From a virus, in the IMG/VR virus record IMGVR_UViG_3300031851_000209, positions 1-22,484 of that record: a stretch of DNA of 22,484 bases. One strand, given 5' to 3'. Every line of letters starts with the position of its first letter. The first letter of the stretch is position 1. Position numbers and translations under genes: made by a program. Shown piece after piece: positions 1,026 through 4,891 of the stretch. Under the pieces are notes generated by a model. The model had not been told where the DNA came from. It ran no database searches and saw only the letters and a list, made by a program, of their open reading frames with translations.

Positions 1026-1220
1026 ATGAACAAGGCGTTAGCAGAATTCTTAGCAAATGGCGGTCAGATAACCCATCTGCCCTCTGGAGTGCCCTCAGAC
1101 ACGAATTCTTGCATGAACTGTAAAGGTCAGTTCCCGACTGAGTCTCTCACGCTACAAGGCACCATACGGCGCTGTAAGAAGTGTGTAGATCGAAGAACTA
1201 AATTCAGGAGTAAGCGATGA
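1026..1220 (+). CDS. Small four-cysteine zinc-ribbon protein
   Basis: The protein is 64 residues from ATG 1026. An upstream in-frame TTG at 999 exists but the ATG gives a compact product. Cys29 and Cys32 (CMNC) and Cys50 and Cys53 (CKKC) make a CxxC-x17-CxxC arrangement typical of a zinc ribbon. The C-terminus after it is very basic (DRRTKFRSKR), which suggests nucleic-acid contact. The gene ends in an ATGA overlap with the MazG-like gene, so the two are probably translationally coupled. No terminase small subunit is recognisable in the window; a DNA-binding role in packaging or gene control is possible, but this is inference only. Confidence 0.7.
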   Translation: MNKALAEFLANGGQITHLPSGVPSDTNSCMNCKGQFPTESLTLQGTIRRCKKCVDRRTKFRSKR

Positions 1221-1612
1221 GAACGGAAGCGGTAGAAAAAGATTTCTTTAACTGGGATCTGCACAACGGTAGGACCGAGTACGAAGCAACCCCGATGCCA
1301 TATGACCACACGGTGGATTACCTCGAGGAGCTGGTTACGGAGTGGCACCAAGCCCGGAACCTGATCGAAGGATCATCTGACAAAGATCAGTTTGCCAAGC
1401 TGATCCAAGAGTGCGGTGAGCTGTCAGAGAGCATCTGCAAGGATCGTAGTGTTGCGGATGATATCGGCGACATCATGGTTGTCCTGATCAATATCGCGGC
1501 TCGCAACAACCTGAATCTAAACCAGTGTTTGGGCACAGCCTACAACGACATCAAGGACCGCAAGGGACGCATGGTGGACGGCGTTTTCGTCAAAGAGGCT
1601 GATAACCACTAG
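1217..1612 (+). CDS. MazG-like nucleotide pyrophosphohydrolase
   Basis: The 131-residue product has the all-alpha NTP-pyrophosphohydrolase pattern. KLIQECGELSES places E65 and E68, followed by DDIGDIMVVLINIAA with D82 and D85; together these match the metal-binding ExxE and (E/D)xxD elements of MazG-type enzymes. The C-terminal DIKDRKGRMVDGVFVKE is also typical of phage members. Such enzymes hydrolyse NTPs or dNTPs to NMP and pyrophosphate, which in phages is proposed to adjust nucleotide pools or lower alarmone signalling during infection. The ATG overlaps the preceding stop (1217-1220), and its TAG overlaps the next GTG start (1610-1614). The first acidic position of the canonical EExxE is Gln64 here, a mild deviation. 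Confidence 0.82.
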   Translation: MRTEAVEKDFFNWDLHNGRTEYEATPMPYDHTVDYLEELVTEWHQARNLIEGSSDKDQFAKLIQECGELSESICKDRSVADDIGDIMVVLINIAARNNLNLNQCLGTAYNDIKDRKGRMVDGVFVKEADNH

Positions 1613-1782
1613 TGGCTAATGTGCCCACCGACAAGGCGCTGTACGCCCGTGTGAAGGCTGCGGCGAAAAAGAAATTCAAGGTCTACCCCAGTGCATATGC
1701 AAATGGCTGGCTGGTACAGGAATACAAGCGGCGTGGTGGCAAATACAAGACGGTGAAGAGCAGTGGCAAAAAAGGGAAGTAG
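1612..1782 (+). CDS. DUF5872-like small basic protein, N-terminal-type half
   Basis: The 56-residue product starts at a GTG that shares its G with the MazG stop (TAGTG). It contains the phrase KKFKVYPSAYANGWLVQEYK followed by RRGGKYKTVK, which I recall from a family of small, very basic phage proteins (DUF5872 or similar). The function of that family is unknown. About one third of residues are Lys or Arg. The gene ends 20 bases inside the next gene, which is in the +1 frame. Homologues as I remember them carry this block followed by a DRWFKEEWVDI-type block in one protein. Here the two blocks are separated by the frame change at a run of six A (1768-1773). A later GTG at 1621 is an alternative start. 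Confidence 0.72.
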   Translation: MANVPTDKALYARVKAAAKKKFKVYPSAYANGWLVQEYKRRGGKYKTVKSSGKKGK

Positions 1783-2008
1783 CTTAGATCGCTGGTTCAA
1801 AGAGGAGTGGGTCGATATCAAGACCGGCAAGTCTTGTGGTCGCAAGAAGGGCGACAAGCGAGCCTATCCCGCCTGTAGACCCAGCAAGAGGGTTTCCGCG
1901 AAAACTCCAAAAACTGCTTCTGAGATGAGCGCCAAAGAGAAGGCTAAGTTCAAGAAGAAGAAGACCTCCAGCAAGCGGATCGACTACAACCATAAGCGGA
2001 CGAAATGA
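1763..2008 (+). CDS. DUF5872-like small basic protein, C-terminal-type half
   Basis: The 81-residue product reads from GTG 1763, which lies inside the end of the previous gene. It is extremely basic: 21 Lys and 7 Arg. The N-terminal block LDRWFKEEWVDIKTGKSCGR, then a CRPSKRVS segment and a Lys-rich tail (KFKKKKTSSKR), match a recurring small phage protein of unknown role; two Cys (25 and 38) might bind metal. The ribosome site for this GTG is poor (AGAG at only 4 bases). Expression could be by coupling or by +1 slippage on the AAAAAAG stretch in the overlap, which would fuse it to the preceding gene. Strong positive charge suggests nucleic-acid binding (inference). Confidence 0.7.
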   Translation: MAKKGSSLDRWFKEEWVDIKTGKSCGRKKGDKRAYPACRPSKRVSAKTPKTASEMSAKEKAKFKKKKTSSKRIDYNHKRTK

Positions 2009-2011
2009 GCG

Positions 2012-2305
2012 ATGTCAGAGAAGAAGTCGGACTCGAAGCTAAAGAACGCCGGGGTGAGCGGCTACAACAAGCCAAAGCGTACCCCAAGTCATCCTACGAA
2101 ATCGCACGTTGTAGTTGCCCGGAATGCCAGCGGAGAGACCAAGACAATCAGGTTCGGGCAGCAAGGGGTGAAGGGAGCTGGGAAGAATCCCAAGACCGCC
2201 AAGGATAAAGCTCGCAAGAAGAGCTACTACGCCAGACACAATGCCCAGGATTCCAAGCCAGACATTCTTTCTGCTCGGTACTGGTCACATAAAACTAAGT
2301 GGTAA
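2012..2305 (+). CDS. DUF6321-like small basic phage protein
   Basis: The 97-residue product from ATG 2012 contains SKLKNAGVSGYNKPKRTPSH, then HVVVARNASGETKTIRFGQQ and a GAGKNPKTAKDKARKKSYYARH segment, ending ILSARYWSHKTKW. This order of blocks is one I recognise from a widespread phage family of unknown function (named DUF6321 from memory). Its VVVA...KTIRFGQQG centre looks like a small beta unit flanked by basic helices, and the protein is strongly cationic. The gene begins 3 bases after the previous stop, which suggests coupled translation. An overlapping reading frame from 2005 encodes no recognisable pattern and is rejected. Confidence 0.8.
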   Translation: MSEKKSDSKLKNAGVSGYNKPKRTPSHPTKSHVVVARNASGETKTIRFGQQGVKGAGKNPKTAKDKARKKSYYARHNAQDSKPDILSARYWSHKTKW

Positions 2306-2309
2306 GGAG
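2304..2309 (+). promoter_or_regulatory. Strong ribosome binding site for the 29-residue gene
   Basis: AAGGAG overlaps the preceding TAA and sits 5 bases before ATG 2315. It is the main reason for accepting so short a reading frame as a gene. Confidence 0.7.
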
Positions 2310-2314
2310 CCTCA

Positions 2315-2404
2315 ATGTTTAAACCGTGTTCATCCTGCAAGAGCAAGGCTAAGTGTAAGAAAGCCAAAAAATGTTTAAAGAAATCAGGTAGTTACAAGAA
2401 GTGA
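2315..2404 (+). CDS. 29-residue four-cysteine microprotein
   Basis: The product is 29 residues from ATG 2315, with a consensus AAGGAG 5 bases upstream. Nine of every ten residues are Lys, Cys, Ser or other small polar types, with Cys at 5, 8, 14 and 20 (CSSC at 5-8) and about ten lysines. Four spaced cysteines in a lysine-rich chain suggest a minimal zinc knuckle, but the spacing CxxC-x5-C-x5-C is not one I can assign to a named family. Its stop overlaps the GTG start of the next gene (GTGA, 2401-2404), which again points to coupled translation. It is too short for standard gene callers. Function is unknown; association with DNA or RNA is inferred from charge. Confidence 0.65.
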   Translation: MFKPCSSCKSKAKCKKAKKCLKKSGSYKK

Positions 2405-2532
2405 AGAAGAAGAGTTGCGATCACCGTGAGACGATGTACGGCAAAGGTGATCTCCGTCGCCCGACGGATCGCAAAAAGTTTAGTGAAAACTATGACCGTA
2501 TCTTCGCAAAGAAGGAGTCAAAGCGTGGGTGA
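2401..2532 (+). CDS. 43-residue basic protein with YGKGDLRRP motif
   Basis: The product reads from GTG 2401, overlapping the stop of the microprotein by GTGA, to TGA 2530-2532. It contains TMYGKGDLRRPTDRKKFSEN and a NYDRIFAKKESKRG end. I recall a similar YGKGDxRRP...F..NYDxIF pattern in small proteins of other tailed phages, again of unknown function. About a third of residues are Lys or Arg. Its last 8 bases overlap the GTG of the DUF5675 gene, and the ribosome site for that gene lies inside this one. The tight overlap on both sides and recognisable conservation support it being real despite its size. Confidence 0.62.
   Translation: MKKKSCDHRETMYGKGDLRRPTDRKKFSENYDRIFAKKESKRG
2512..2517 (+). 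promoter_or_regulatory. Ribosome binding site fixing the GTG start at 2525
   Basis: AAGGAG lies 7 bases before GTG 2525. It argues against the upstream in-frame ATG at 2426, which would add an unrelated Arg/Ser-rich N-terminus read through the preceding gene in another frame. Confidence 0.7.
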
Positions 2533-2929
2533 GATCGTTCTGCAACGCTGGGCATATCACCCTGACGCGACGCTAGGAATCATCAAGTTCTCCGATATAG
2601 AGTTCTGGTCGGTAGAGCGCCCATGGCTGGATAACAAGCCAAACATCTCTTGTATTCCAGAGGGTGAGTACAAATTGAGGTGGCGAGAGTCTCCGAAGTT
2701 TGGACCTACTTGGCAGCTCGAAGATGTACCGGGGCGCACTCATATTCTTATTCACGCAGCTAACTTTGCGTACCAGCTCCAAGGCTGTATTGCGCTTGGC
2801 ACCGATTTGATGGGCGACACGATTGCGGTGGCTAACAGCCGAAAGGCGGTGAATCTGTTTGAGGAAGTAACAGAGGGTGGCGAATGGGTGCTGAAGGTAG
2901 AAAATGCCGCATATGCGGCACTGGAGTAG
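2525..2929 (+). CDS. DUF5675 family protein, possible peptidoglycan-active enzyme
   Basis: The 134-residue product starts at GTG 2525. Family hallmarks in order are LQRWAY (6-11), SVERPWLDNKPNISCIPEGE (29-48), and DVPGRTHILIHAANFAYQLQ (68-87 approx.) followed by GCIALG. This order (ERPW, CIPEG.Y, R.HI.IH.(A/G)N, GC) is the DUF5675 pattern as I remember it. The reaction is not established. His73, His77 and Cys88 in an IH...GC context resemble the His/Cys arrangement of L,D-transpeptidase-like folds, so a cell-wall role is a hypothesis. No other candidate endolysin is visible in the window. The 3' end overlaps the HNH gene by 46 bases. Confidence 0.75.
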   Translation: MGEIVLQRWAYHPDATLGIIKFSDIEFWSVERPWLDNKPNISCIPEGEYKLRWRESPKFGPTWQLEDVPGRTHILIHAANFAYQLQGCIALGTDLMGDTIAVANSRKAVNLFEEVTEGGEWVLKVENAAYAALE

Positions 2930-3342
2930 CCCGATTAAACCGCCTGATCTGCAACCAGTGCAAGCACCTCCGAGACAAGGAAAGGTGGCGGGATAACTAT
3001 GAGAGCTACGTTAGTAGTCGCATACGGATCGCCAAAGCAAGAGCAAAGAAGCACGGATTCAGTTTTGCGATAGACAAGGACTACATCCTAGAGATCCTTG
3101 AGCGGCAGAATTATCGATGCGCGATAACGGGATTCCCGCTTTCTCGCACCAGTAATAAAGGTGACTACGACCTGAGCATAGACCGAGTGGATTCAGATCT
3201 TGGCTATGAGAAAGATAATGTGGTGTTGGTCTGCAACAGAGCCAACATCATGAAGAACATAATGCCACTGGACATGTTTGTTTGGTGGTGCCAAGCGATA
3301 GCAAATTATGACCAAGATCGAAGAAGCCGCAAAAAAACTTAA
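2884..3342 (+). CDS. HNH endonuclease with N-terminal zinc ribbon
   Basis: The 152-residue product has an N-terminal CRIC (8-11) and CNQC (23-26) zinc-ribbon pair. A basic helical linker rich in Arg/Lys (45-57) follows. The HNH (treble-clef) core comprises YRCAITGFPLS (77-87), LSIDRVDSDLGYEKDNVVLV (97-116) and NRANIMKN (118-125). D100, R101, N112 and N118 fall at usual core positions. The SIDR(V/I)DS..GY..(D/G)NV pattern is typical of phage HNH proteins. An AGAGG-type ribosome site precedes ATG 2884. The gene overlaps both neighbours, by 46 bases at 5' and 35 bases at 3' with the terminase. In HK97 an HNH protein beside the terminase is needed for packaging cleavage, so a packaging role is plausible; a free-standing homing nuclease is the alternative. 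Confidence 0.85.
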   Translation: MGAEGRKCRICGTGVARLNRLICNQCKHLRDKERWRDNYESYVSSRIRIAKARAKKHGFSFAIDKDYILEILERQNYRCAITGFPLSRTSNKGDYDLSIDRVDSDLGYEKDNVVLVCNRANIMKNIMPLDMFVWWCQAIANYDQDRRSRKKT

Positions 3343-4891
3343 AGGCAACTTCCCGCTATACGCCAAAAATGTACTCAAGATTGTCACCAAGGAAGGTGTG
3401 GCTAAGCCGTTTGTCCTGAATCAAGGACAGATGTGGCTACATAACCGTCTTGAAGAGCAGATGCAGAGGCAGGGCAATATCCGCGCCCTTGTCCTCAAAG
3501 CCAGACAGGTTGGCATCTCGACTTATGTAGAGGGTAGATACTTCTGGAAGATCACCCAGAATCGCAACGCCAACGCTTTCGTTCTAAGCCACCTAGCCGA
3601 ATCAACGAATTCGATCTTTAACATGGTGCGCTATTTCTACGACAACATTCCTCATCCCGCTTTCAAGCCTCCGTTATCCACTCAGACTGCCACAACGCTC
3701 GTATTTGACGAGATCAACAGCCGTTACCGGGTAGGTACAGCCCGATCTACACAGACCGGACGAGGGCAAACAAACCGCTTTGTGCATGGCTCTGAGGTAG
3801 CTTTCTATCCCCAGGGTAATGACATTGTTGCTGGTCTACTTCAAACAGTCGGTGGCAAGGATAGCGAGGTGATACTAGAGACCACAGCGAATGGTGCTGG
3901 CGGTTGGTTCTACGATCAGACAATGAAAAGTCTGCGTGGAGAGACCGAGTGGCAAGTCTGCTTTATCCCGTGGTTCTGGATGCCGGAGTACATCCGTAAG
4001 CCTAGTCCGTACTTCGAGGCGACACCGGAAGAGTACAAGCTGGCGCAGCAGTATGGTCTCAGTGATGAGCAGTTGTGTTTCCGCCGCGCAAAATTAGACG
4101 AGCTAGGTAGCACCGACTTGTTTCGGCAGGAGTACCCTTCCACGCCGTTAGAGTCCTTCCTGACTTCTGGTCGATGTTTCGTGGAGGACAAGTGTCTTCG
4201 TGCAGCGGAAGAGGAGTGCTACACCCCGGACTTTCGTGGGGATTATCGCAATGGTGCGCTGCAAGCCCACTCTAGCGGTCCATACAAAGAGTGGTTCCCG
4301 CCGGTTTCAGAGGATGCCTATGTAATCGGCGTGGACGTGGCTGAGGGTCTGTCATACGGGGACTACAGCGTTGCTCAGGTATTGGATTCCTATGGCAGGC
4401 AGGTCGCTTGCTGGCACGGTCATGTGGACCCTTGGGAGTGGGGAAACCTGATCTCGCAGTTAGGTCAGCGGTACAACAATGCGTATGTGATCGTTGAGCG
4501 GAACAACCACGGTCTGACCACGCTTCGGCGACTTCAAGAGATCAACTACCCCAACATGTTTGTCGAGTCATCTGTGGATGGAGCCTATGGCGACAAGCTC
4601 ACAAAGCGGGGCGGCTTCCTCACTACCAGCAAGACCAAACCACTGATCGTGGACAACATGGCTGCACTCCTCAGGCAGGAGGAATCGGGCATCGCGGACA
4701 TTGAGCTTGTGAACGAATTACGGACGTATGTCATTGATGAAAAAGGAAGTTTTAATTCCCAGCAAGGGTGTTATGATGACCGTGTTATGGCTTATGCTAT
4801 AGCCCTGCACGGACTCGCTTCAATGCCCAGACCAAGGGCAAGAATCATACAACGACGATATGAGTCGGTTGACTCTGTGGCGGGTTATTGA
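3308..4891 (+). CDS. terL: Terminase large subunit (ATPase and nuclease)
   Basis: The 527-residue product is the packaging motor. The ATPase part shows a Walker A variant KARQVGIST (64-72), a Walker B/SE-type segment FVHGSEVAF (158-166) with likely catalytic E163, and coupling motif ILETTANG (189-196). The C-terminal RNase-H-like nuclease shows GVDVAEG (341-347, D343), VIVERNNHG (394-402, E397) and GCYDDRVMAYAIA (487-499, D490/D491), the three acidic metal ligands. Length is normal for the family. Its ATG lies inside the end of the HNH gene and its stop overlaps the portal start (TGATG). No small terminase subunit is recognised upstream, so one of the unknown small genes or a distant gene must supply DNA recognition. 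Confidence 0.95.
   Translation: MTKIEEAAKKLKGNFPLYAKNVLKIVTKEGVAKPFVLNQGQMWLHNRLEEQMQRQGNIRALVLKARQVGISTYVEGRYFWKITQNRNANAFVLSHLAESTNSIFNMVRYFYDNIPHPAFKPPLSTQTATTLVFDEINSRYRVGTARSTQTGRGQTNRFVHGSEVAFYPQGNDIVAGLLQTVGGKDSEVILETTANGAGGWFYDQTMKSLRGETEWQVCFIPWFWMPEYIRKPSPYFEATPEEYKLAQQYGLSDEQLCFRRAKLDELGSTDLFRQEYPSTPLESFLTSGRCFVEDKCLRAAEEECYTPDFRGDYRNGALQAHSSGPYKEWFPPVSEDAYVIGVDVAEGLSYGDYSVAQVLDSYGRQVACWHGHVDPWEWGNLISQLGQRYNNAYVIVERNNHGLTTLRRLQEINYPNMFVESSVDGAYGDKLTKRGGFLTTSKTKPLIVDNMAALLRQEESGIADIELVNELRTYVIDEKGSFNSQQGCYDDRVMAYAIALHGLASMPRPRARIIQRRYESVDSVAGY

Follow-up and report, generated by a model that had tools for sequence, protein, structure and literature searches.

A gene run between the two terminase genes

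What do the tiny, strongly basic proteins encoded just ahead of a phage large terminase subunit do, and do they do it together? The question is raised by an uncultivated virus record of 22,484 bases (hereafter, the window), in which an earlier note singled out six small, tightly coupled basic genes at positions 1026–2532 as a joint nucleic acid-binding set. All open reading frames proposed for this stretch were confirmed at their positions, and neighboring genes do overlap or nearly touch. The run and its context are listed below; locus counts, here and throughout, are numbers of sequences and not of independent events, with near-identical contigs counted many times, and every locus comes from metagenomes or sequence deposits.

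1026..1220, + strand: P0001, 64-residue zinc-ribbon-like protein with two CxxC pairs (CxxC/CxxC); 9 near-identical loci only; pN/pS 0.14
1217..1612, + strand: MazG-like pyrophosphatase; phrog_1992, E 7e-38; 10 loci only
1612..1782, + strand: P0003, N-half of DUF5872, 56 residues, GTG start, trio member 1; PF19197, 46.5 bits; pN/pS 0.10
1763..2008, + strand: P0004, C-half of DUF5872, 81 residues, GTG start, trio member 2; PF19197, 58.9 bits; pN/pS 0.07
2012..2305, + strand: P0005, phrog_7595 protein, 97 residues, trio member 3; phrog_7595, E 2e-30; pN/pS 0.13
2315..2404, + strand: 29-residue basic microprotein with four Cys, variable slot member; relatives in 19 loci; pN/pS 0.05
2401..2532, + strand: 43-residue YGKGDLRRP protein; relatives in 53 loci, same order; pN/pS 0.18
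2525..2929, + strand: DUF5675 protein (context); PF18925, E 7e-27; phrog_1501
2884..3342, + strand: HNH/endonuclease VII-like protein (context); phrog_3322, E 4e-25
3308..4891, + strand: TerL, terminase large subunit (context); phrog_2, phrog_24361; 128 relatives in IMG/VR

The basic charge also holds: all six small proteins have a pI of 10.1–10.5, Lys and Arg together accounting for 19, 29, 35, 25, 41 and 35% of their residues in gene order, whereas most of the 12 further small or mid-sized genes listed for the window encode acidic proteins. Codon usage backs four of the six genes; for the zinc-ribbon and 29-residue genes it is either neutral or carries no information. Across relatives, pN/pS lies between 0.05 and 0.18 for all six families, indicating strong purifying selection. 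Therefore, all six are real genes, even the one encoding only 29 residues. The N-terminal stretch of P0001 resembles the SutA RNA-polymerase-binding domain, although the match stays below the cut-off (PF20661, 26.1 bits versus 29.3); a link of this protein to host RNA polymerase is possible.

Conserved place, variable content

We fetched 80 TerL relatives from IMG/VR and called upstream genes in 50 of them. TerS was identified upstream of the slot in these relatives (PF03592, E 7e-22); in the window, the contig starts only after this gene, and the run is positioned between TerS and TerL. Where TerS was called, at least one tiny basic gene (Lys+Arg of 22% or more) is present in the TerS–TerL interval in 39 of 42 relatives, and at least two in 36 of 42. 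The run is an accessory stretch between the terminase genes of a marine phage group and belongs to the head/packaging region; place and gene type are conserved in this slot, and gene content is variable.

The slot is mosaic among the 50 relatives and differs even between near-identical contigs. For example, the 29-residue gene is swapped for a 78-residue gene in near-identical contigs L010 and L014–L017, and in L013 an additional 101-residue gene precedes the DUF5872 N-half. The only stable block consists of the 43-residue gene, DUF5675, HNH and TerL. The zinc ribbon and MazG are confined to near-identical contigs, the former being a lineage-specific gene that is probably outside the unit and the latter a neighbor of the unit, not a part of it.

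Several features of the slot deserve mention in their own right. In almost every relative (80 loci), DUF5675 (phrog_1501) is kept beside HNH and TerL. The 101-residue gene (MPNYKPGQKIFPTDHPFKNLDGS...) occurs in two relatives (L013:2270-2575 and L021:463-768) and had no match in Pfam or PHROG. In L041, L047, L061 and L080–L085, the slot contains another two adjacent tiny basic genes, phrog_17747 and phrog_14910. They may represent a distantly related form of the DUF5872 pair, with suggestive similarity on the N side. Comparison of the DUF5872 N-half with the neighboring AGNYTKP family gave a probability of 63 (shuffled at most 2.6), which is suggestive only. The proposed relationship between the DUF5872 C-half and the SLKKWTK family was rejected (probability 4.9, against 24.5 for one of the shuffles), as was that between the YGQ family and P0005 (probability 0.5).

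Two halves of DUF5872

That the run encodes two DUF5872-like halves, as had been proposed, is borne out by Pfam matches well above the gathering cut-off of 27.5 bits: P0003 covers positions 1–49 of the 116-position PF19197 profile (46.5 bits), and P0004 covers positions 51–114 (58.9 bits). The Pfam model describes a single 116-residue protein, whereas here it is represented by two overlapping genes in different frames. The same arrangement, two genes that usually overlap, is found in nearly all other phage loci that we fetched, and in crassvirus-like contigs the halves are two modules, sometimes in reverse order. The linkage between the halves is complete in the sequences counted: in each of the 88 IMG/VR loci with either half, the other is present too (74 loci retrieved with P0004, 11 loci of TerL relatives and 3 P0005 loci). 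A joint alignment of both halves was misaligned and was excluded from the analysis.

The third protein, P0005, adjoins the DUF5872 pair in the window, and its relatives are found within approximately 1 kb of such a pair in C72C1, L123, L152, L173, L176 and L179. In CRP-2 and CRP-207, phrog_7595 likewise occurs near DUF5872-like sequence.

P0005 and the phrog_7595 family

Since homology of short basic proteins is easily overstated, decisive profile matches were checked against column or residue shuffles; the comparisons with crAss001 described below stand outside this control. P0005 is a clear, full-length member of phrog_7595, its residues 4–97 matching positions 3–96 of 96 (E 2e-30). The label "DUF6321-like" given to it previously was right only in a weak sense, as the match to DUF6321 (PF19846) reaches 16.3 bits against a cut-off of 28.5. 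The match to Tlr6F/DUF5754 (PF19058) is similarly far below its gathering cut-off (14.8 versus 27.4 bits), and P0005 was therefore filed under neither family. Profile–profile comparison of phrog_7595 with DUF6321 gave a probability of 31 across 21 columns (0.9 or less after shuffling), so that kinship between P0005 and DUF6321 is only suggestive.

The connection to Tlr6F runs through intermediates. The P0005 family matches the pooled modules of capsid protease, portal and crassvirus-like proteins (see below) with an hhalign value of 98.3 (shuffled at most 1.6) and the single module sets with values of 87–98.6, and the modules of two crassvirus-like contigs, L099 and L140, pass the DUF5754 cut-off with 28.7 and 29.5 bits. 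Judged by these intermediate profiles, P0005 is a distant relative of Tlr6F/DUF5754 and not a member. DUF5754, identical with Tlr6F, is a conserved protein with no assigned function in polinton-like viruses, virophages, giant viruses and certain phages (PMC4642659, PMC12220804), and the alga virus CpV-BQ1 carries both DUF5754 and DUF5872 (PMC12085832). Otherwise, DUF5872 and DUF5754 are barely mentioned in the literature. A scan of genome contigs returned 18 matches, almost all in MAG contigs, which we read as phage contigs binned with their hosts; no cellular use was found in that scan.

Structure prediction, advised for the single proteins, was only partly informative. The P0005 model (pLDDT 73, pTM 0.62) did not lead to a recognizable solved fold, its best match reaching Z 2.8, and among viral models it matched its own kind only. 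The P0004 model was too poor for use (pLDDT 63, pTM 0.31).

The same modules are fused in head-associated proteins

A counterpart of the run is present in cyanomyoviruses, where T4-GC119 proteins (Syn33_105, SSM1_115) are encoded after gp16 (TerS) and before gp17 (TerL). They combine C-type, N-type and DUF6321 modules in the same interval as the gene run considered here, but as one polypeptide of 450–700 residues instead of separate genes. For the N-type module, hhalign gives 83 (shuffled at most 0.9); for the C-type module it gives 74, in one protein out of three (7.7 or less after shuffling); the DUF6321 module is recognized by its Pfam match (PF19846, E 1e-21). The latter module is also related to a family from the slot of the window relatives (hhalign 85, against 2.3 or less after shuffling). 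Because the phrog_7595–DUF6321 kinship is only suggestive, this fusion firmly covers two trio members. SSM1_115 is annotated as "hypothetical", whereas other S-SM1 genes are marked as structural after virion mass spectrometry; T4-GC119 is thus probably absent from the proteins detected in S-SM1 virions.

The phrog_7595 domain has its own fusion partners. Together with Peptidase_S78_2, it is found in the capsid protease gp125 of ICP1 and in 4L372D_127 of an Aeromonas phage, located at the C-terminus in the former and at the N-terminus in the latter. These two proteins share the domain with P0005 but differ in its fusion to the peptidase, and we noticed no DUF5872 modules in either. ICP1 gp122–126 constitute a late capsid operon (PMC7567579). 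As judged from these sequences, the domain in capsid proteases is a module that has been moved as a whole. In the ICP1 and 4L372D proteases, which are related, the two phrog_7595 domains are 62% identical to each other and occupy opposite ends (L250:2758-3681 and L254:2967-3803). In CL131 ORF012, the domain is located between portal and head-morphogenesis parts, and this protein was detected in virions by LC-MS/MS (PMC6293099).

Fusions covering the whole trio come from large crassvirus-like contigs, in which DUF5872-C, DUF5872-N and DUF5754/7595 modules reside within proteins of 480–2000 residues. L099 and L111 unite all three in a single protein, whereas other contigs of this kind divide them between two consecutive ones. 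The genes are located directly behind a muzzle-like gene (hhalign 82 to PhicrAss001 gp44), which is itself preceded by a homolog of the ring protein gp43 (E 0.007 in PDB, blastp 1.5e-5). Portal and capsid homologs of crAss001 confirm the crassvirus affiliation of three of these contigs. In PhicrAss001, the next genes after gp44 are gp45 and gp46, whose products are virion cargo proteins (PMC10172136). They occupy the same genome slot as the crassvirus-like proteins with trio modules, and one crassvirus-like module matches gp45 (blastp 0.001), but our comparisons revealed neither a DUF5872 nor a 7595 module in gp45 and gp46 themselves.

The crassvirus-like proteins in this cargo slot are chains of modules bordered by double glycines, as seen in L163:5785-10195, L111:5620-8631 and L140:5713-11522, and look as if built for cutting by a protease. 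The crassvirus-like polyprotein L099:4741-9279 contains a SET domain as well (PF00856, E 4e-7).

On the strength of these module matches, the core trio can be described as free-standing versions of modules that in other phages are combined within one or two head-associated polypeptides.

Genomic context of stand-alone copies

Among 100 proteins encoded near P0005 relatives, portal, major head, head–tail adaptor, terminase and endolysin families dominate, and the same families are rare among 100 proteins encoded farther away, the counts being rough because one protein can match several families. In KBS-S-2A and MED4-184, stand-alone 7595 copies have scaffold and capsid genes as neighbors, DUF5872 lies between scaffold and capsid genes in P-SCSP2, and the modules are immediately ahead of TerL in CRP-7 and C72C1. 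Cultured marine carriers of these genes include Roseobacter phages CRP-345 and CRP-207, Puniceispirillum phage HMO-2011, Prochlorococcus phage P-SCSP2 and Synechococcus phage S-SM1. Copies outside head genes occur too, as in phage NCTB, and some have lysozyme neighbors. Our literature search found no virion proteome for a phage with stand-alone copies.

Taken together, the proposed joint set stands in part. Its location in the head/packaging region is upheld, and the fusions point to one unit made up of the trio, which recurs in head/packaging contexts; a six-gene ordered system is contradicted by the mosaic slot in the 50 TerL relatives and by the zinc ribbon, found in near-identical contigs only. 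The suggestion of host takeover found no support.

A possible role of the trio

Since the modules are fused within head-associated polypeptides elsewhere, the three proteins most likely act together. We propose that they would be late products, binding DNA by virtue of their charge and entering the procapsid as small internal head proteins, with the phrog_7595 domain as the part docking on or inside the head. The docking role is assigned to this domain because it is the one joined to the capsid protease, to the portal/minor-head protein and to proteins of the cargo slot. As no solved fold was recognized for the P0005 model and the model of the DUF5872 C-half is unusable, charge is the one property from which DNA binding is read. 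Proteins packed with DNA are familiar from the internal head proteins of T4 and the ejection proteins of P22; the likeness to these concerns the proposed way of working. That the trio is a head/packaging unit we consider likely. Its location inside the virion is a more tentative claim, for which we see somewhat less than an even chance; among relatives, the fused CL131 protein is the one reported in virions. The statement as a whole, namely that these are late, DNA-binding head accessory proteins that are probably packaged, appears to us evenly balanced.

The same observations can be read differently. The proteins might act as packaging cofactors outside the virion, binding pac or concatemer DNA or the terminase, helping TerS–TerL to start or regulate packaging and then leaving. 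Such a role would fit the TerS–TerL location in two unrelated phage groups, the window relatives and the cyanomyoviruses, and the position directly before TerL in CRP-7 and C72C1; the apparent absence of T4-GC119 from S-SM1 virions also favors a cofactor over a packed protein. However, the modules are away from the terminase in P-SCSP2, KBS-S-2A, MED4-184 and the crassvirus-like contigs, where they occupy scaffold/capsid or cargo slots, and the fusions found join them to protease and portal but not to terminase, which makes the cofactor role somewhat unlikely in our assessment.

Less probable still is that the genes have no joint function and are hitch-hikers, a slot beside a homing-type HNH endonuclease having gathered small mobile host-acting genes (morons). 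Slot content that varies between near-identical contigs and the HNH gene within the block agree with this, as does the report that T4-GC119 sits in an endonuclease-linked cassette (PMC3037559). Yet hitch-hiking accounts poorly for N–C linkage in all loci, for the same modules being fused in unrelated lineages and for their enrichment beside head genes. Finally, anti-defense or toxin–antitoxin-like genes are typically small, densely packed and variable in content, and so is the run. Nevertheless, such a role unrelated to the head seems very improbable, as no family of this kind is among the Pfam and PHROG matches and the fusion partners are head proteins.

Implications

A broader and, at present, unlikely possibility is that the phrog_7595/Tlr6F-like domain might be a portable head-docking (encapsidation) module, which brings basic DNA-binding DUF5872 modules into the capsid, as their carrier or partner, and is common to tailed phages, crassvirus-like phages and, via DUF5754, giant viruses and polinton-like viruses. 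Both Tlr6F/DUF5754 and DUF5872 are found repeatedly in tailed phages and in large viruses of algae; Tlr6F extends further, to polinton-like viruses and virophages. Neither family has an assigned function. Their modular fusions, with a capsid protease, a portal/minor-head protein, the crassvirus cargo slot and a TerS–TerL protein, point to the virus head and supply named cultured phages for direct testing. A portable head-docking module, if true, would provide a first function for a protein that is among the most widespread of those still unexplained in viruses.
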